Shown here piece after piece: positions 18,770-26,697 of a stretch of DNA of 64,000 nucleotides. The DNA is from Limnohabitans sp. T6-5 (GTDB lineage Bacteria; Pseudomonadota; Gammaproteobacteria; Burkholderiales; Burkholderiaceae_C). The translations under genes were made by a program, and so were the position numbers. Location of the stretch: assembly GCF_003063315.1 (NCBI RefSeq), contig NZ_NERV01000004.1:62001-126000 (forward strand), in the 5' to 3' direction. The notes beneath the pieces were generated by a model. That model was not told the origin of the DNA. It did no database searches and worked only from the letters and a program-made list of their open reading frames with translations. Each line of letters starts with the position of its first letter. Positions within the stretch are counted from its first letter, which is position 1.

Positions 18770-20575
18770 TCACTCGGCCGATTGCTGCAAGGCCCACATG
18801 GTGGCGTAACGCCCTTGCTGAGCCAGCAAGGCGCTGTGGTTGCCTCGCTCAATGATCTGCCCCGCCTCCATCACCAAAATTTCATGCGCATCGACCACCG
18901 TGGACAGGCGGTGTGCGATCACCAAGGTGGTTTTGTTTTGTGACACGCCCGCCAGCTCGGCCTGAATTGCCCGCTCGTTGGCCGAATCCAGCGCAGACGT
19001 GGCTTCGTCGAACACGAGGATGGGCGGGTCCTTGAGCAACGTTCGGGCAATCGCCACGCGCTGCTTTTCACCGCCCGAAAGCTTCAGGCCGCGTTCGCCC
19101 ACAGAGGTTTGGTAGCCCCTGGGCGTCGAGGCAATGAAGTCGTGAATGCGGGCAGCGCGTGCCGCTTGCTCCACCTCCTCTTGCGATGCACCGGGTCGAC
19201 CATACGCGATGTTGTAAGCCACGCTGTCATTGAACAGCACCGTGTCTTGCGGCACGATGCCCAATGCGCGGCGCACGCTGGCTTGCTGAACTTGCCGGAT
19301 GTCCTGCCCGCCAATGCGGATGTGCCCATGCTGCACATCGTAAAAACGGAACATCAAACGCGCCAGCGTGGACTTGCCTGAGCCCGACGGCCCGACCACG
19401 GCCACCGTCTTGCCCGCTGGAATCTCGAAGCTGATGTCCTGGAGGATGGGGCGATCCGGCTCGTACGCAAACGAGACATGGTCAAACACCACATCGGGCG
19501 CCCCTTTCTGCGCCAACGGCTGGGCACCGGGCACATCGGCCACTTCACGCTCACGGTCCATGAGCACAAACATCTTGTCCAGATCGGTCAGGCTTTGCTT
19601 GATCTCGCGGTAGAGCACACCCAAAAAATTCAGCGGGATGTACAGCTGGATCATGAAGGCGTTGATCATGACCAGATCACCCAGCGTCATGCGGCCATCC
19701 ACCACGCCTTGTGTGGCGCGCCAGAGCATGGCCACCAGTGCTGCCGCAATGATGAGTTGCTGCCCCGTATTGAGCACCGCCAAAGTGGTCTGTGCCTTCA
19801 GACGCGCCAAACGCAAGCGCTCAAGGCTCTCGTCATAGCGGCTTGCTTCAAACACCTCGTTGCCAAAGTATTTGACGGTTTCGTAATTCAGCAGCGAGTC
19901 GATGGCCCGGGTGTGGGCCGCCGAATCGAACTCATTGGCCTGACGGCGATATTGGGTGCGCCATTCGGTGATGCGCACCGTGAAGAAAATGTAAAAAACC
20001 AGCGCAGCGCCGGTGATCCAGGCAAACCAGGCATCGAACTTGACCGCCAAAATGGTCAGCACCAGGCCCACCTCAATCAGCGTGGGCACGATGGAATAGA
20101 GCGAATAAGAGATCAGCGATTCGATGCCACGCACACCGCGCTCAATGTCCCGCGTCATGCCGCCGGTCTGCCGCGCCAGATGAAAACGCAGACTGAGCGC
20201 ATGCAAGTGCTCAAAGGTTTGCAGCGCGATCGAGCGGGCAGCACCTTGCGTGGCCTTGGCAAACACCAGTTCACGCAACTCGGTCAGGGCCGAGGTCATC
20301 AGGCGCAGTGCGCCATAGCCCAACAGCAAGGACACCGGCACCACCAGCACGGTGCGGGGGTCGCCGGGCCGGATGTTCATCACATCCACCAGCTCCTTGA
20401 GCAGCAAAGGCACGCTGACGTTGGCCAGCTTGGCCCCCACCATCAGGGTCAAAGCGATGATGACCCGCCATTTGTACTGCCACAAATAGGGAAAAAGCCG
20501 GGACAAGGTCTGCCAATCTCCGGAACGGACAGCAGCAGCAGTGGATGGGGGGGAAGTTTCGCCGTGGTGGCGCAT
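18770..20575 (-). CDS. Atm1/HMT-type ABC exporter (fused permease-ATPase)
   Basis: This is a half-transporter of about 601 residues that acts as a homodimer in the inner membrane. Six transmembrane helices precede the nucleotide-binding domain with Walker [11 protein letters not shown], signature LSGGEKQR, Walker B ILVFDEATSALD and switch His VIAHRLST. The membrane part carries motifs of the Atm1/ABCB7 group: FHLARQTGGMTRDIERGVRGI, LLNYETVKYFGNE and IYIPLNFLGVLYREIKQS-type segments. Those proteins export glutathione-bound or sulfur species linked to Fe-S maturation or metal tolerance. ATG 20575 (MRHHGE) is preferred to the TTG at 20584. It is divergent from yciA with only 40 bases between starts. 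Confidence 0.88.
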   Translation of the reverse strand: MRHHGETSPPSTAAAVRSGDWQTLSRLFPYLWQYKWRVIIALTLMVGAKLANVSVPLLLKELVDVMNIRPGDPRTVLVVPVSLLLGYGALRLMTSALTELRELVFAKATQGAARSIALQTFEHLHALSLRFHLARQTGGMTRDIERGVRGIESLISYSLYSIVPTLIEVGLVLTILAVKFDAWFAWITGAALVFYIFFTVRITEWRTQYRRQANEFDSAAHTRAIDSLLNYETVKYFGNEVFEASRYDESLERLRLARLKAQTTLAVLNTGQQLIIAAALVAMLWRATQGVVDGRMTLGDLVMINAFMIQLYIPLNFLGVLYREIKQSLTDLDKMFVLMDREREVADVPGAQPLAQKGAPDVVFDHVSFAYEPDRPILQDISFEIPAGKTVAVVGPSGSGKSTLARLMFRFYDVQHGHIRIGGQDIRQVQQASVRRALGIVPQDTVLFNDSVAYNIAYGRPGASQEEVEQAARAARIHDFIASTPRGYQTSVGERGLKLSGGEKQRVAIARTLLKDPPILVFDEATSALDSANERAIQAELAGVSQNKTTLVIAHRLSTVVDAHEILVMEAGQIIERGNHSALLAQQGRYATMWALQQSAE

Positions 20576-20615
20576 AGAGGACAATCTTGTGAAACGTTAC
20601 CCTTCGATTGTGCCC

Positions 20616-21071: not shown

Positions 21072-23150
21072 TCAAAACCGGTAACGCATCGACACCCTGA
21101 CCGTGCGCGGCTCGGCTGGGTGAACATGCACGCCGTCCACCCCGGCCGCCTCCCCCGTCAGCCGCGAGGTGTAGAAATACGCCACATCGATGTTCTGGCG
21201 ATCCATCAGGTTCAGCACATCCAGCGCCAGGTCCAGGTTGGGGCGCAGCTGACGCTGCATGCGCAAATTGAGCGTCAGGCTCGACGGCGCACGCACCGCA
21301 TTGTCTTCGCGCAAGGGCGCAGGCCCGATGTAACGCCAGCCCACAGAGCCCGACCAGGGGTGCATGTTGCGCAGGCTCAACGTCAAGTTGGCCACGCGCT
21401 GCACAGCGTTGGGAATGAAAGGACCTGCCGTGGCCTGGTCGGTGTAGCGCGCACGGGTCCAGGCCAGGCTCATGTCCAGGCCCAGATAGCGCCCCCATGC
21501 CCCTTGGTGGCTGAACTCCAGCCCCTGACGCCGACTGGGTCGCCCCGCCTCGGTGCTGCCCGCATCGCCCAGGTACACCAGCTCAGAATCCATGTCCAGC
21601 TGCCACAGCGCCAGACTCGATTGCCACTGGGCAGACCATTGGGTTTTGAGGCCGACTTCCTGCCCAAGTGAGGGCACCAGACCCGCCACCGTGCTGATGG
21701 CCGAGCCACTGACCGGGTCCAGCCTGGCCGTGGCGCCCCGGGCATCGTTGCTGTGAAAGCCCCGACCGGCATTGAGGAAAAATTCTGTGTTGGCCCAAGG
21801 CCCCAGGATGAGCGACAGCTTGGGCGAGAGCTGGCTGCTGCGGGCCTGGCCCGAATTGGCGGCCAGGCTCAGGCTTTGCACCTGCGCGCGCCACACATCG
21901 GCCCGCACACCTGCCACGGTGCGCAGCCAGGGCGTCCAGGTGGTGGCGTTTTCGGCCTGGACACCCAGCAGGCTTTGTTCAACCCGGTCATCGCGCACGG
22001 TCGACAACATTTGCCGGGCCGCCGTGTTGAACAAACCCAGCCGGATGTGGTCTTGCCGATAGTCCAGCCCCAGGGTATTGACCACCAAGGTACCGTCCTC
22101 GGCGTCCGTGACCCAGGACTTGGAGGCCCGCCCGCCCCAGACGCTGCGCTGGTCGCTTTGGCCGAACTGGTCGCCACTGGCCGGGTTGTTCAGCTGGTAG
22201 GTGAAGTTGGAAAACAGGTCCAGGTCGTAGCGCATGGCGAAGGCACTGAACTGAACACGTTCTTGCGCTGTCTGGCTGTGCCACTGCCCCGACAGGCTGG
22301 TGCGGCGGGTGTGCCCGCCATCGCTGGCGTCCAGTGAATCAAACCGGCCAAAGGGCTGACCCTGATACACCCCGGCGTCAAGCAAACGCTGCGGCACTTG
22401 CTCGGTCGCCCGCCACTGCGCCGCATAAGACATGAGGCTGCCGGACCAGCCTTGGGCCGATGTGCCGCCGCTCAGGGTCAGCAAGCCGTTGGTCTTGCGC
22501 AAGCCTTCGGGCTGGGTCCAGGGGCCGTTGTTGAGCATGCCCTCCAGCGCCCCCAGGACATGCACACCGTCTTGAATCTCGCGTGAAGCGGCCACCACTG
22601 TGCGGGCATAGCCCCCCTGCCCCAGGCTGACATCGGCAAAGGGCTGGTCCAGCCGCGTGCGGTAGGCGATGCGGGCCGAGCCGGCTGACGAGAAGTCGCC
22701 CTCACCCGCGAAATACGGGCCTTTGCGGTAGTCGATGCGCTGCACCAGCTCGGGCATCAAAAAGTTCAGATCGCTGTAGCCCTGGCCATGGGCATGGCTG
22801 GGCATGTTGACCGGCACGCCATTGACTGTGGTCGCGAAGTCGGTGCCATGGTCCAGGTTCATACCTCGCAAAAAATACTGGTTGGCCTTGCCATCGCCCG
22901 AGTGTTGGGTCACCACCATGCCGGGCACAAATTCCAGCACATCGGCCGGGCGCAGCAGGGGCTTGTTCTTGATCACGACGGCGCCCACGACCCCTTGGCT
23001 GGCGGCATCACGGGTGCCCAAAGCGCTGTCACCCGACGCCATGATTTCAACTTCATCCTGCACAGATGGGCTGGCGGCCATGAGCTGTGGGTGCGCACAA
23101 ACGGCCCCCAAGAACAAATTGATCGAGCAGACAGAAAAAAGTTTCATCAC
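21072..23150 (-). CDS. TonB-dependent outer membrane receptor
   Basis: This 692-residue outer-membrane transporter has a signal peptide (hydrophobic INLFLGAVCA), a TonB-box-like DEVEIMA at about residues 32-38, and a plug domain (LLRPADVLEFVPGMVVTQHSGDGKANQYFLRGMNLDHGTDF). A 22-strand barrel follows, ending in RVSMRYRF with the terminal Phe typical of outer-membrane proteins. The C-terminal region DVAYFYTSRLTGE...GVHVHPAEPRTVR is His-containing. It is the last gene of a five-gene minus-strand run with a HupE/UreJ-type protein and two YHYH lipoproteins, so uptake of a metal or metal complex is plausible. The ligand is unknown. Confidence 0.92.
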   Translation of the reverse strand: MMKLFSVCSINLFLGAVCAHPQLMAASPSVQDEVEIMASGDSALGTRDAASQGVVGAVVIKNKPLLRPADVLEFVPGMVVTQHSGDGKANQYFLRGMNLDHGTDFATTVNGVPVNMPSHAHGQGYSDLNFLMPELVQRIDYRKGPYFAGEGDFSSAGSARIAYRTRLDQPFADVSLGQGGYARTVVAASREIQDGVHVLGALEGMLNNGPWTQPEGLRKTNGLLTLSGGTSAQGWSGSLMSYAAQWRATEQVPQRLLDAGVYQGQPFGRFDSLDASDGGHTRRTSLSGQWHSQTAQERVQFSAFAMRYDLDLFSNFTYQLNNPASGDQFGQSDQRSVWGGRASKSWVTDAEDGTLVVNTLGLDYRQDHIRLGLFNTAARQMLSTVRDDRVEQSLLGVQAENATTWTPWLRTVAGVRADVWRAQVQSLSLAANSGQARSSQLSPKLSLILGPWANTEFFLNAGRGFHSNDARGATARLDPVSGSAISTVAGLVPSLGQEVGLKTQWSAQWQSSLALWQLDMDSELVYLGDAGSTEAGRPSRRQGLEFSHQGAWGRYLGLDMSLAWTRARYTDQATAGPFIPNAVQRVANLTLSLRNMHPWSGSVGWRYIGPAPLREDNAVRAPSSLTLNLRMQRQLRPNLDLALDVLNLMDRQNIDVAYFYTSRLTGEAAGVDGVHVHPAEPRTVRVSMRYRF

Positions 23151-23189
23151 TTGTGATTGTGCAAGATCAACCGCACGGCAAAGCCGGGC

Positions 23190-24293
23190 TCACGCCGCCA
23201 TTGCGATCCGCTGAACGAACCAGAACGTGCCCAAGCCCATGGCACCCCATGAGGCCAGCCGCAAAGCCTTGGCCACAGCACGCTCCCCAGCCCAGCGGCG
23301 CAGCGCCCAAAACACCCCCACCGCCACACCAGCAGCGGCCAGCTGGCCCAGTTCAATGCCGAGGTTAAAGCCCAGCAGACTCCAGAATTTGCGTGCGCCC
23401 TGCAGGCCCAGATCGGCCAAGGCTTCGGCCATGCCCAAACCATGGATCAATGCACAGAAAAACACCAAGCCCATGCGCCAAGCAAAAGGCACAGTTCGCC
23501 CATTGTTCTGGCTCCAGCGGTCAAAACCGGCCATGCCGACGATGGTGATGGCAATGGCAGGCTCCACCAGGGCGGGCGAGACTTTCCAGCCCCCCAGCAC
23601 GCAAGCCAACAAGGTCAGAGCATGCCCCAGCGTGAAGCAAGTCAGCGTCCACACCAGATGGCGCAGCCCTGTGCCAGCAGCCAACACCACCCACAAAAAC
23701 AGCAAATGGTCAGCACCCGCCAATACATGGTGCGCGCCGATCCAGAGCTGGTCGGAGATGACGGCCCAAAAGCTTGGGAAAACCGCCATCTCGGCACGCT
23801 CGGGGCTCAAGGTCAAGAGCTGGGTATCACCCCCACGGGTCACGGTGACGTGCAGGGTTTGCTCATCGGCTTGGGTCCCGAAAAGACGCACACCGAAAAG
23901 CCCCCCCTGCAGACCCGAAGGCCATGCAAAGCGCCCCATCACCACCAGCTGACTGGCCGGGGCGGTGGGGGCATTGTCGGGCGGCGACAGGTTGAACATC
24001 ACGCCCTCCAAAGGTGCCGCACCTTGCTCGCTCACCAGGTGCACGCCTGCGCGCACTTGCGTTTCGATGTCGCGCCAATGTGCATGGCCCTCAGCCATGG
24101 ACAAACGCCCATCGCCATCGTCGTCGATGCCCTGGAAAGCTGAAATCGGCAATGACAGCACCATGAAAGCGCCGCCATCCACGAAGTTCAGCGTGCCGCG
24201 CTGCGCCACCATGAGGTGGGCGTGGGCGGCACCCGACAGCAGCATCAGCCAACCCATCCAGCCCGTGAGCAGCGCCCTTTGCAAGACACGCAT
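23190..24293 (-). CDS. HupE/UreJ-type membrane protein with periplasmic EF-hand domain
   Basis: The predicted protein has 367 residues from ATG 24293; a GTG 27 bases upstream is less likely. A signal peptide (RALLTGWMGWLMLLSGAAHA) leads into a soluble N-terminal domain holding a textbook 12-residue calcium loop, D57-x-D59-x-D61-G62-x-L64-x-x-x-E68 (DDDGDGRLSMAE). The C-terminal half has about six to seven transmembrane helices with His/Asp motifs GAHHVLAGADHLLF, FTLGHALTLL and ALIHGLGMAEAL. These are typical of the HupE/UreJ_2 family, linked to nickel/cobalt or copper handling. It starts right after the YHYH gene stop (TGACATG), implying coupling. I infer metal transport or sensing; no ligand is proven. 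Confidence 0.82.
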   Translation of the reverse strand: MRVLQRALLTGWMGWLMLLSGAAHAHLMVAQRGTLNFVDGGAFMVLSLPISAFQGIDDDGDGRLSMAEGHAHWRDIETQVRAGVHLVSEQGAAPLEGVMFNLSPPDNAPTAPASQLVVMGRFAWPSGLQGGLFGVRLFGTQADEQTLHVTVTRGGDTQLLTLSPERAEMAVFPSFWAVISDQLWIGAHHVLAGADHLLFLWVVLAAGTGLRHLVWTLTCFTLGHALTLLACVLGGWKVSPALVEPAIAITIVGMAGFDRWSQNNGRTVPFAWRMGLVFFCALIHGLGMAEALADLGLQGARKFWSLLGFNLGIELGQLAAAGVAVGVFWALRRWAGERAVAKALRLASWGAMGLGTFWFVQRIAMAA

Positions 24294-24294
24294 G

Positions 24295-25341
24295 TCAAGC
24301 CCTTGGGGGCGGCATGCCACCGCCTGTAGCGCCCCCTGTGGGGGTGCCCTTCACGCACCGATGCACATAGGGCCACGTTTCCGTCACCATGTAGTGGTAG
24401 ATGCCCTTGGGGAACTCGGGGGTCACGCCCGTGCGGCCATTGCACTCGTCCAGATCCCCCGAGCCCGCCACGTACTCATAGTCTTGCAAAAAAGTGCCCA
24501 TGGGGAAAATGGTTGCCGAGGGGCGACCACTGTCGGGGCTTGTTTTTTTGCGCCAGCTGGAGCTGAGCACTTTCACGCCCGATTGGGCATTGCTGGCGTC
24601 CACATGACCGTAACGTGCATACATCGGAAAACCATCGCTGGCCCAGCCCACCAAGGTCATGGTCTGTTTGCCCTTGCCCAATTTGTCAATGAACTTCTCC
24701 GGCATGCCGTGGTAGTGGTATTCGCCCTGAGGCTGCACATGGCCGTTGCTGCCATCGGCACCAAAATTGAATGAGGTCTGGCCCAAAGCCTCCATGCGCC
24801 AAGCCCCCAGATTGCCCAGCAGCGTGCAACCGCCGACGGTTCCCGAGCCGGAGACCGTCGTGTCAGTGGATGTGGCGGCGCTGGCGCAGTTGCCGCCCGT
24901 GCCGGGCTCAAATTTGATGCCATTCAAGGCATAGCCCGCGGTCTGGATGGCCGTGCCCGTCGTGCTGCTCACCGCAGGGGTGATCGTGGCCGACACCTCG
25001 GTGTTTTGTGCCGAAATCTTGAAGTCCAGATCCGACTGGATGTTGAAAGGGCCCACGGCATGGTCAGGCACGCTGTTGGTCTTCAAAGTGCGGGCGGTGT
25101 CGGTGCAGGACCAGCTGGCGGTACTGGTCAAATTGACCAATGGATCGGCATTGAAGGCGCTGGTGCTGTAACTGCATTGCACACCCGCCGTGGTGGTCGT
25201 GCTGCTGGTGGTGTCTGTGGATGTGCTCGATCCACCACCACAGGCGGTCAAAGCGGCCAGACACACAGACAGCCCTGCGGCGTGGAGGGTCCGACCCATG
25301 AAAAAATGGTTGTGCATGATTTTTTGATTCAGAAATTTCAT
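24295..25341 (-). CDS. YHYH-domain lipoprotein (first paralogue by map position)
   Basis: This exported protein of about 348 residues starts at ATG 25341. The signal ends in a lipobox (LAALTAC-GGG), so it should be lipid-anchored, followed by a Ser/Thr-rich linker. The YHYH domain is visible as NGHVQPQGEYHYHGMPEKF, GWASDGFPMYARYG, DYEYVAGSGDLDECNGRTGVTPEFP and the closing GIYHYMVTETWPYVHRCVKG. Histidines and Cys are arranged as if for metal binding, but the family's function is unknown. The start overlaps the preceding paralogue's stop by four bases (ATGA). The longer open frame upstream lies inside that paralogue. Confidence 0.85.
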   Translation of the reverse strand: MKFLNQKIMHNHFFMGRTLHAAGLSVCLAALTACGGGSSTSTDTTSSTTTTAGVQCSYSTSAFNADPLVNLTSTASWSCTDTARTLKTNSVPDHAVGPFNIQSDLDFKISAQNTEVSATITPAVSSTTGTAIQTAGYALNGIKFEPGTGGNCASAATSTDTTVSGSGTVGGCTLLGNLGAWRMEALGQTSFNFGADGSNGHVQPQGEYHYHGMPEKFIDKLGKGKQTMTLVGWASDGFPMYARYGHVDASNAQSGVKVLSSSWRKKTSPDSGRPSATIFPMGTFLQDYEYVAGSGDLDECNGRTGVTPEFPKGIYHYMVTETWPYVHRCVKGTPTGGATGGGMPPPRA

Positions 25342-26297
25342 AACTTGCCCTTCACGCAGCGCTGCAAAAAGGGGTAACTGTCGGTCGCGTAATAGTGGTA
25401 AATGCCTTGCGGAAACTCGGGCGTCACGCCGGTGCGGCCGTTGCATTCATCCAGATCACCCGAACCAGCCACGTATTCATAGTCCTGTTTGAATGTGCCC
25501 ATGGCATAGAGACTGGTGGCGGGTCGGCTGGCATCAGGGCTGGCCTTGGTGCGATAGCTCCCCGTCATCACCTTGATGGCAGAACTGGCATCGGTGGCCA
25601 CCGTGTAGCCATAGCGGGCATAAATCGGAAATCCATCCGCAGCCCAGCCAATCAAGGTCATGGCCGTCCCTTTCTGAAGTTGACTGACAAACCCCTCAGG
25701 AACGCCGTGGTAGTGGTAAACACCTCCAGGCTGCACATGCGCGTTGTTGGTATCCGTTCCAAAATTAAAGTGACTCTGCCCCAGTGCCTCAATGTCCCAG
25801 GAGCCACTGCGACTGGCCAGGTCACATCGGGCACCCGAGTTGTCACAAGTGCCCGCTGTTGCCGGGTCGATGGGCACACCATTGAGCACATACCCAGCCA
25901 GCGAGAAGGGGCCTGTGCGTGGCGTGGCGGTCGATGTTGGGGTGGGCGTCAATGTCGCTGAGACAGAAACCCTTTGCGCGGCGATCGTGTTGGGATTGTT
26001 CGGATTCGGAAAAGTGCCCACGGCGTGGTCAGGCAGACCGTTGGCCGTCAAGGATCGTTTGCCTCCACTGCACGACCAAGTGGCGGTGCTGGTGGCATTG
26101 ACGGAGGCCGAGGTGTTGAACTCGCTTTTGGCATAGCCGCACAGCACCGCGGCTGTGCTGGTGCCGGTGGTGCTGGTGCCGGTGGTGCTTGTGTCTGGGG
26201 TGTCGGTGGCAGTTGACGTGGAACCGCCGCCACAAGCGCTCAGCGCCAACAAGCAGGAAACAAGCCCGGACATTTTCAAAATTTGGGGAAAGGTCAT
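25338..26297 (-). CDS. YHYH-domain lipoprotein (second paralogue)
   Basis: This is a predicted lipoprotein of 319 residues from ATG 26297 with signal LVSCLLALSAC-GGG, then a repetitive Thr/Ser linker (TSTTGTSTTGTST). It shares with its neighbour the blocks LPDHAVG, ALGQS(H)FNFG, HVQPGGVYHYHGVPEGF, GWAADGFPIYARYG and DYEYVAGSGDLDECNGRTGVTPEFP. It ends in IYHYYATDSYPFLQRCVKG. Between the blocks the two differ greatly, so the duplication is old. The gene lies 14 bases after the small Cys protein and overlaps the next YHYH gene. Confidence 0.85.
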   Translation of the reverse strand: MTFPQILKMSGLVSCLLALSACGGGSTSTATDTPDTSTTGTSTTGTSTAAVLCGYAKSEFNTSASVNATSTATWSCSGGKRSLTANGLPDHAVGTFPNPNNPNTIAAQRVSVSATLTPTPTSTATPRTGPFSLAGYVLNGVPIDPATAGTCDNSGARCDLASRSGSWDIEALGQSHFNFGTDTNNAHVQPGGVYHYHGVPEGFVSQLQKGTAMTLIGWAADGFPIYARYGYTVATDASSAIKVMTGSYRTKASPDASRPATSLYAMGTFKQDYEYVAGSGDLDECNGRTGVTPEFPQGIYHYYATDSYPFLQRCVKGKL

Positions 26298-26311
26298 GAT
26301 CACGCGCCTGC

Positions 26312-26587
26312 TCATCGTTGGCCGGACATGCCAGGTGCTGGCATGCGGCTCGGTTTGCACACCAGAGGCTTGTCAGCGGGCGCCCAGCAAGTGCCCTGCA
26401 CACTGCCTTGCGGACTTTTGAAACTGCAGTCTTGCCCTGATTTCAGGGTCTGGCATGCCGCCAGGGCTTCGGAGGGTGGTGGGCGTGGCGAATCGCCACC
26501 GGGCGCTGATTGTGCGTACAACATGCCGCCGCTCAAGGCCAGCGACATGGACAAGGCGGCATGCGCAAGAATGGATTTGTTTTGCAT
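26312..26587 (-). CDS. Small secreted four-cysteine protein, function unknown
   Basis: This 91-residue protein has a signal peptide (MQNKSILAHAALSMSLALSGGMLYAQ, cleavage near residue 25), a Pro-rich spacer, and a compact domain with four Cys at 45, 54, 67 and 77 in the order ACQTLKSGQDC...GSVQGTCWAP...PLVCKP. The even spacing suggests two disulfides or a metal site. It is the first gene of the YHYH-HupE-TonB run and begins 110 bases after the start of the divergent-side thioesterase stop region, where the operon promoter should lie. I do not recognise a named family. Confidence 0.75.
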   Translation of the reverse strand: MQNKSILAHAALSMSLALSGGMLYAQSAPGGDSPRPPPSEALAACQTLKSGQDCSFKSPQGSVQGTCWAPADKPLVCKPSRMPAPGMSGQR

Positions 26588-26697
26588 GATGGACTTTCAA
26601 AGTGGAAGCCGCGATGGCGGCCTCCGGTCCATTGTTCAAAACAAATGTGGAGTAAATATGGAGCAAATGTTGTGGCCCAAAACAGCGGCCACGCACA

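Follow-up and report, generated by a model that had tools for sequence, protein, structure and literature searches.

Here we present an operon of five genes on the minus strand (26587-21072) of a 64,000-nucleotide (nt) stretch of DNA from Limnohabitans sp. T6-5, hereafter the window, in which two YHYH-domain lipoproteins are encoded directly ahead of a HupE/UreJ-2 membrane protein whose N-terminal periplasmic domain is of the "anglerase" type. The pairing of YHYH proteins with this domain, which recurs in other genomes, gives the YHYH proteins a likely role in metal handling. YHYH proteins are found in bacteria, diatoms and viruses, and the literature found on their function (preprints and most subscription journals lay outside the search) contains predictions and no tested function. 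The new element is the fixed YHYH-anglerase pair, together with its operator and the stand-alone form of the domain; the parts themselves are of known kinds. The initial annotation had described the route as apparently unreported, and this needs to be divided: HupE/UreJ-2 proteins with a metal-binding N-terminal domain were already published in 2025 and are not new here, while no YHYH-HupE link was found in the literature, where HupE-type terms were covered by the top-ranked results only and preprints, most subscription journals and supplements were outside the search.

Inspection of the open reading frames (ORFs) and their junctions, together with family searches and alignments, gave the following features.

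26638..26660, minus strand: putative operator of two CAnATT half-sites, 11 bp apart, shared with relatives' YHYH loci
26312..26587, minus strand: 91-amino-acid (aa) exported-type four-Cys protein, PPxEAxxAC...C...GTCWAP...LxCKP, no Pfam or NCBIfam family
25338..26315, minus strand: YHYH1 lipoprotein, PF14240 (Pfam), 325 aa, lipobox LSAC-G identified by eye
24295..25341, minus strand: YHYH2 lipoprotein, PF14240 (Pfam), lipobox LTAC-G identified by eye
23190..24293, minus strand: anglerase-type HupE/UreJ-2 protein with signal peptide, N-terminal beta-sandwich and membrane permease domain PF13795 (Pfam, structure model, alignment)
23790..24218, minus strand: its N-terminal periplasmic domain, predicted mature start at His (HLMVAQRGTLN; alignment and cleavage-site rule)
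24090..24125, minus strand: EF-hand-type loop DDDGDGRLSMAE, mature residues 32-43 (alignment)
21072..23147, minus strand: TonB-dependent receptor whose subfamily frequently has nickel-type genes nearby (Pfam, locus comparison)

As initially described, the five genes are joined by tiny or overlapping junctions: 4-nt ATGA overlaps link the Cys protein to YHYH1 and YHYH1 to YHYH2, and gaps of 1 nt and 42 nt separate YHYH2 from the HupE gene and the HupE gene from the receptor gene, respectively. Both YHYH proteins pass as essentially full-length PF14240 matches (YHYH1, E 2.5e-68, 230.3 bits, profile positions 5-193 of 193; YHYH2, E 1.3e-63, 214.9 bits, positions 7-193 of 193). The HupE protein matches PF13795 with E 1.4e-35 and 122.8 bits against a cut-off of 24.5, and the receptor matches the TonB plug (E 3.9e-14) and barrel (E 2.3e-23) families. 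In the genome assembly, which comprises 4.17 Mb and is 93.7% complete, the two YHYH matches and the sole PF13795 match all fall within this operon.

The pairing was followed in 80 loci, the best 80 of at least 548 relatives in a single GTDB scan with the YHYH alignment (a few genomes give two loci); these are the closest relatives, so that the counts are valid for this YHYH group only. Most derive from beta- and gammaproteobacteria; the rest include sphingomonads and two Deinococcales bins. Using our own ORF rules, we found a relative of the window HupE protein as the next same-strand gene after YHYH in 75 of the 80 loci, so that the co-occurrence in other genomes on which the initial annotation depended, a neighbourhood check set beforehand, holds for this pair. 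A count based on distance instead placed the N-terminal domain within 250 nt of the YHYH stop codon in 74/80 loci. One locus without a partner gene, L094 from a Flavobacteriaceae bin, has a YHYH protein that clusters with those of Colwellia. Among the 74 loci in which the N-terminal domain scored above 40 bits, 45 have a domain that ends at a stop codon with no permease in the locus, 25 have one that continues into the permease, in two the permease frame is broken and two are truncated by the contig end; the permease profile matches 27/80 loci. It is the N-terminal periplasmic domain that is conserved as the partner of YHYH; the permease part can be missing. The view of YHYH, HupE and TonB genes as one set accordingly stands for YHYH and the N-terminal domain, is loosened for the permease and fails for the TonB subfamily, which is present in 3/80 loci.

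Wider draws showed where the pairing stops. YHYH was present in 20 of 369 genomes of a class-level draw that included the Limnohabitans genome itself (the N-terminal domain in 4/369), and in 12 of 200 genomes of an order-level draw. Seventeen of the stronger YHYH neighbourhoods were fetched from these draws, the weaker matches being excluded. In three of the 17 (L134, L144, L146) the gene directly downstream is of the anglerase or HupE/UreJ-2 type, and the link is therefore confined to some YHYH groups. Other groups have other partners: in L143 (8150-10339, genome G492) a YHYH domain follows a sulfatase domain (PF00884) in a single frame, and in L140 a sulfatase gene adjoins YHYH.

The N-terminal domain is marked by its first mature residue, a His that is invariant in 58/58 aligned proteins, as are D32 and E43, the first and last residues of the loop; in an alignment of 48 proteins that includes one more distant row, only the His is still invariant. 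An A-x-A-type site precedes this His in all 72 domains whose start is covered, with cleavage assigned by rule. The mature HupE protein was modelled with a predicted local distance difference test (pLDDT) score of 93.3, and the top match of the N-terminal domain model was 9GCE, the copper-bound Ang-1 domain of a HupE/UreJ-2 protein (Foldseek E 3.7e-5; VIA-align Z 10.9 over 134 residues, root-mean-square deviation 3.5, 15% identity). The zinc-binding protein ZrgA was nearly tied with it at Z 10.6, followed by PA4063 at Z 9.4. A PDB sequence search with the HupE protein (phmmer), which bears on kinship to RbAng-1a, gave no match up to E 1. Ang-1 is reported to bind Cu2+ with a dissociation constant of 74 nM and Ni2+ with one of 220 nM, with copper coordinated by His1 and Asn41, and anglerase domains have been proposed to feed the permease (PMC12537917). 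In the membrane part of the window-type proteins, H164, D170, H171, H199, E219 and E289 are invariant in 25/25 sequences, and H259 is conserved in 24/25.

The DxDxDGxLxxxE loop first noted at residues 57-68 is indeed there, as DDDGDGRLSMAE in the HupE protein counted from its ATG start, as a single loop that falls below the Pfam cut-off (EF-hand_5, 12.8 bits against 25.9). The strict pattern occurs in 58 of 74 domains, a loose form in 15 and none in one. A similar loop was found in 8 of 27 PF13795 proteins with a usable frame from 30 Burkholderiales loci, all eight of the AHK-starting kind. A profile search with the N-terminal domain, judged from the 60 of 342 sequences listed, was set aside, as EF-hand proteins matched around the loop.

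In the YHYH proteins themselves, H43, H139, H147, H149, D134, D173, D224 and D235 are among the residues invariant in 78 aligned rows. The model of YHYH1 (pLDDT 87.6) found no solved structure at E <0.001 and one chain at Z 2.4, which is not proof of a new fold, and a PDB sequence search with YHYH1 gave one chance-level match (E 0.71). Matches were found to cyanophage YHYH proteins. YHYH1 and YHYH2 fall in separate clades, YHYH2 grouping with one copy each from L024, L026 and L064 (support 100/99).

A further shared feature is an operator element, which lies between BaeSR-like two-component genes and the YHYH operon in relatives and, in the window, 50 nt before the first start codon. Counting genes as BaeS/BaeR-like when they score at least 150 bits against a relative's pair, we found them in 23/80 loci (regulator in 22, kinase in 22), and in none of 47 TonB-receptor loci and none of the 19 loci fetched from the wider draws. 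Two of the pairs, tested against NCBIfam, were nearest to BaeS and BaeR at scores below the curated cut-offs. The window holds one operator match (26638-26660), with 1 mismatch to the relatives' consensus and 0 expected from shuffles. A scan of 5.81 million positions, with both strands summed over all collected loci (with some overlap) and five copies of the window's own operon left out, returned 19 sites with at most 4 mismatches: one in the window, 18 in the 80 loci and none elsewhere. All but one of the 19 are on the operon strand. Each of the 14 sites with at most 3 mismatches precedes the first gene of the operon or the kinase gene at its head. Of the five sites with 4 mismatches, two stand about 80 nt before YHYH (L082, L094), those of L027 and L078 are within the called reading frame of the first gene, and the one in L050 is off the operon. 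Sites with at most 3 mismatches are present in 11 of the 23 BaeSR-like loci and absent from the other 12. The pattern was built post hoc from betaproteobacterial loci, so that the matches in those loci follow from how it was made; the Colwellia sites (L059, L067, L068) did not contribute to it.

The 11-bp spacing of the half-sites is that of tandem sites of OmpR/PhoB-family regulators, and the core, TCTCCA/ACTCCA, resembles the BaeR consensus. Scored as the better of two alignments to the BaeR box, the window site agrees in 13/17 letters, a value reached by 14 of 2000 shuffles; for the relatives' sites, 6 to 97 of 2000 shuffles scored as high, and for Colwellia 1075 of 2000, no better than chance. 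The likeness of the operator to a BaeR box is modest and, at the level of sequence, only suggestive. In the Limnohabitans genome (93.7% complete) there is no orthologous BaeSR-like pair; the best regulators are 43-44% identical, and the best kinase is 37% identical over the kinase core only.

The receptor at the end of the operon has a different distribution. Its subfamily occurs in L096 and L026, after the HupE gene, and in L033, two genes away, and the L096 receptor is 89% identical to that of the window. In draws that included the Limnohabitans genome, the subfamily was found in 9/274 genomes of the class (E 1e-30) and 36/398 of the phylum (E 1e-60), and all other places from both draws make up the 47 sampled receptor loci. 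A nickel-type gene lies within the fetched stretch in 18 of these 47, several of which are close relatives or from the same genome: NikR in nine, NicO in six (one locus has both), HupE/UreJ-2 in three (one weak, E 2.9e-6) and, in one, a HupE/UreJ domain encoded in a single frame with the receptor. The last is an 872-aa frame (L175, 7624-10239, genome G446) with PF04955 before the TonB receptor, either a fusion or a misread start. NikR was confirmed by NCBIfam in four loci, and a Pfam scan found NikR_C in 8 of 103 neighbours. By comparison, none of the 99 loci of the YHYH sets has NikR or NicO, which favours the nickel link of the receptor subfamily. The nickel-linked receptors are spread over several clades. 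In the window there is neither NikR nor NicO, and the HupE/UreJ-2 gene adjoins the receptor; a urease alpha gene is present in the genome. We conclude that the TonB receptor is a lineage-specific addition to the YHYH-anglerase operon.

Taken as a whole, the window operon reads, with belief and doubt about evenly balanced, as a route by which a transition metal is captured at the cell envelope and imported, with nickel and copper the likeliest candidates. The TonB receptor would bring the metal across the outer membrane, probably as a complex; the two YHYH lipoproteins, with four invariant His residues each, would hold it or free it from its carrier, acting as partners of the anglerase domain. 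The calcium-type loop, which is part of the helical insert that follows strand 2, probably shapes the metal site of that domain, and a regulator of the OmpR/BaeR family would switch the operon at the conserved operator. Within this reading we infer the identity of the metal, the direction of transport, the job of the YHYH proteins and the regulator. A more general form, which we advance tentatively and rate somewhat below an even chance, is that YHYH and the EF-loop anglerase domain make up a hitherto unnamed two-protein periplasmic metal relay under its own BaeSR-like sensor, acting via the conserved operator, and that this relay has been wired to an inner-membrane permease in some lineages and in Comamonadaceae also to an outer-membrane nickel-type receptor, giving an import line without an ATP-binding cassette (ABC) transporter.

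Several observations weigh against import. With 45 of the 74 anglerase domains lacking a permease, the pair cannot have import as its core function, and the presence of the TonB subfamily in only three of the 80 loci makes the three-layer set peculiar to a few Comamonadaceae. NikR and NicO are absent from all of the 80 YHYH loci, and NikR was not found in the Limnohabitans assembly (93.7% complete). The receptors of the window, L096 and L026 form a clade of their own (support 100/98) whose only members are YHYH-operon receptors, and L208 of the same genus, the nearest receptor outside it by both identity (52%) and path, lacks a nickel-type gene over a distance of five genes. Furthermore, the gene reported as most strongly up-regulated by nickel-rich medium in Sphingobium sp. 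ba1 was a HupE/UreJ-like one (PMC5557971), and BaeSR has been tied to envelope stress, metal resistance, zinc toxicity and tungstate (PMC3799227); both findings favour tolerance over simple uptake. The suggestion of a metal or metal-complex route spanning three layers survives as metal handling, by the fold match to a copper-bound anglerase with reported copper and nickel binding (PMC12537917), and is restricted as a three-layer set to those few Comamonadaceae.

Since many core pairs come without a permease and many are accompanied by a BaeSR-like system, the main rival is defence, in which YHYH and the anglerase domain would buffer or sense excess periplasmic metal, or respond to envelope stress, under the BaeSR-like system, with permease and receptor secondary. 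We judge this unlikely, though well worth weighing. The BaeSR-like genes in 23/80 loci against none in the 47 and 19 control loci, the 45 domains without a permease, a multicopper oxidase cluster in 3/80 loci (checked by model in L031 only) and the reported links of BaeSR to metal resistance, zinc toxicity and tungstate (PMC3799227) and of a HupE/UreJ-like gene to excess nickel (PMC5557971) all argue for it. The six invariant His, Asp and Glu residues of the fused permease and the nickel-linked TonB subfamily, however, fit import better, and no efflux-pump cluster stood out among the neighbours, where no model search was aimed at one.

An enzymatic role for YHYH, as a metal-dependent hydrolase acting on an envelope or extracellular glycan or peptide while the other genes take up the product or supply the metal, appears improbable. 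In a phage-genome study, YHYH in tail proteins is predicted to have a zinc site and to act as a hydrolase (PMC7824862), and the cyanophage matches of the window model, along with the YHYH-sulfatase fusion and the neighbouring sulfatase gene in more distant YHYH groups, are in keeping with such a role. On the other side, no known enzyme fold was matched at E <0.001 among solved structures, an absent match being weak evidence, and sulfatase-like genes, recognized by eye, stand near window-type YHYH in 4/80 loci only.

Slightly less probable still is a calcium module, in which the EF-type loop and the EF-hand proteins encoded nearby would be signs of an envelope system that senses calcium, with transition metals incidental. 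The strict loop in 58/74 domains, separate EF-hand protein genes in 8/80 loci (in L090 about 9 kb away) and the gene order kinase-regulator-EF-hand protein-unknown protein-YHYH-anglerase in Colwellia L068 would fit such a system. However, 16 of the 74 domains deviate from the strict loop, whereas all 72 domains covered at that end retain the N-terminal His, and the like loop in 8/27 Burkholderiales PF13795 proteins suggests that it may be structural. Finally, four further candidates were rejected: a lanthanide route (the EF-hand neighbour in another genome scored 21.9 bits against lanmodulin, far below the cut-off of 135), copper as the sole metal (suggested by a multicopper oxidase near 3/80 loci), control of the operon by NikR (not in the genome) and conservation of the whole five-gene set (TonB subfamily in 3/80 loci).

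The remaining genes of the operon and its surroundings add the following. No Pfam or NCBIfam family matches the 91-aa protein at E 0.1; its four-Cys profile matches 16/80 YHYH loci, one of them weakly (E 0.0021), and two of these loci, L098 and L099 (9668-10933), encode a YHYH protein with the four-Cys domain fused at its N-terminus. The nearest relative found, L096 (Comamonadaceae bacterium PBBC1), has the flanking genes of the window and a single YHYH frame. Beyond one plus-strand gene, the window carries an ABC exporter, Atm1-like by eye (18770-20584, minus strand), which in L096 lies two genes on. No Rfam match to an upstream riboswitch (cobalamin, NiCo) was found across 19-31 kb up to E 1.

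In other YHYH loci, a multicopper-oxidase-type gene stands downstream of the YHYH-HupE pair in L031 (6621-9515), L060 (4406-7237) and L028; in L031 and L060 it precedes a second, divergent YHYH gene. MipA/OmpV-type outer-membrane genes, a label checked by model in L026 and L031, are near YHYH in six of the 80 loci (L026, 9145-9978; L047, L031, L060, L055, L069). Additionally, L068 (8459-9273), L052, L059 and L090 encode a small paired EF-hand protein and a PPPP-starting protein with no Pfam family, and in L068 these two genes sit between the two-component system and YHYH.

With a partner that is the next gene in 75/80 loci, a structural match to a metal-bound domain and a shared predicted operator, the function of YHYH becomes testable. 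The questions this opens are whether YHYH binds metal or passes it to the histidine-tipped domain, and which metal induces the operon. Stand-alone anglerase domains and the calcium-type loop also extend a kind of protein named only in 2025.

The nearest known systems compare with the window operon as follows. Compared with the TonB loci that contain NikR, NicO or HupE/UreJ genes, the window receptor is 42-48% identical to their receptors, and the window lacks NikR and NicO and the genome NikR. Set against BaeSR and the BaeR box, the relatives' two-component systems match the BaeS and BaeR models best, with modest similarity of the box and no orthologous pair in the Limnohabitans genome. The periplasmic zinc proteins ZrgA and PA4063 have a similar beta-sandwich by model; the His-rich stretch and the ABC zinc importer of ZrgA have no counterpart in the window operon.

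The window YHYH proteins share with the phage and cellular members of PF14240 the full-length Pfam match, the invariant YHYH motif and the His/Asp set, but they are periplasmic-type lipoproteins in a fixed order with the anglerase domain, whereas the phage proteins are described as tail-associated (PMC7824862). The closest known system is the Ang-1-HupE/UreJ-2 protein of Franco Cairo et al. 2025 (PMC12537917, 9GCE), with which the window protein has in common the N-terminal His after a signal peptide, the beta-sandwich with a helical insert after strand 2 and the C-terminal HupE/UreJ-2 permease. The words YHYH, "EF-hand" and "calcium" are all absent from the main text of that paper. The window protein is 15% identical to Ang-1 in the structure alignment and carries the EF-type loop, and the window-type domain is linked to YHYH and also occurs without a permease.

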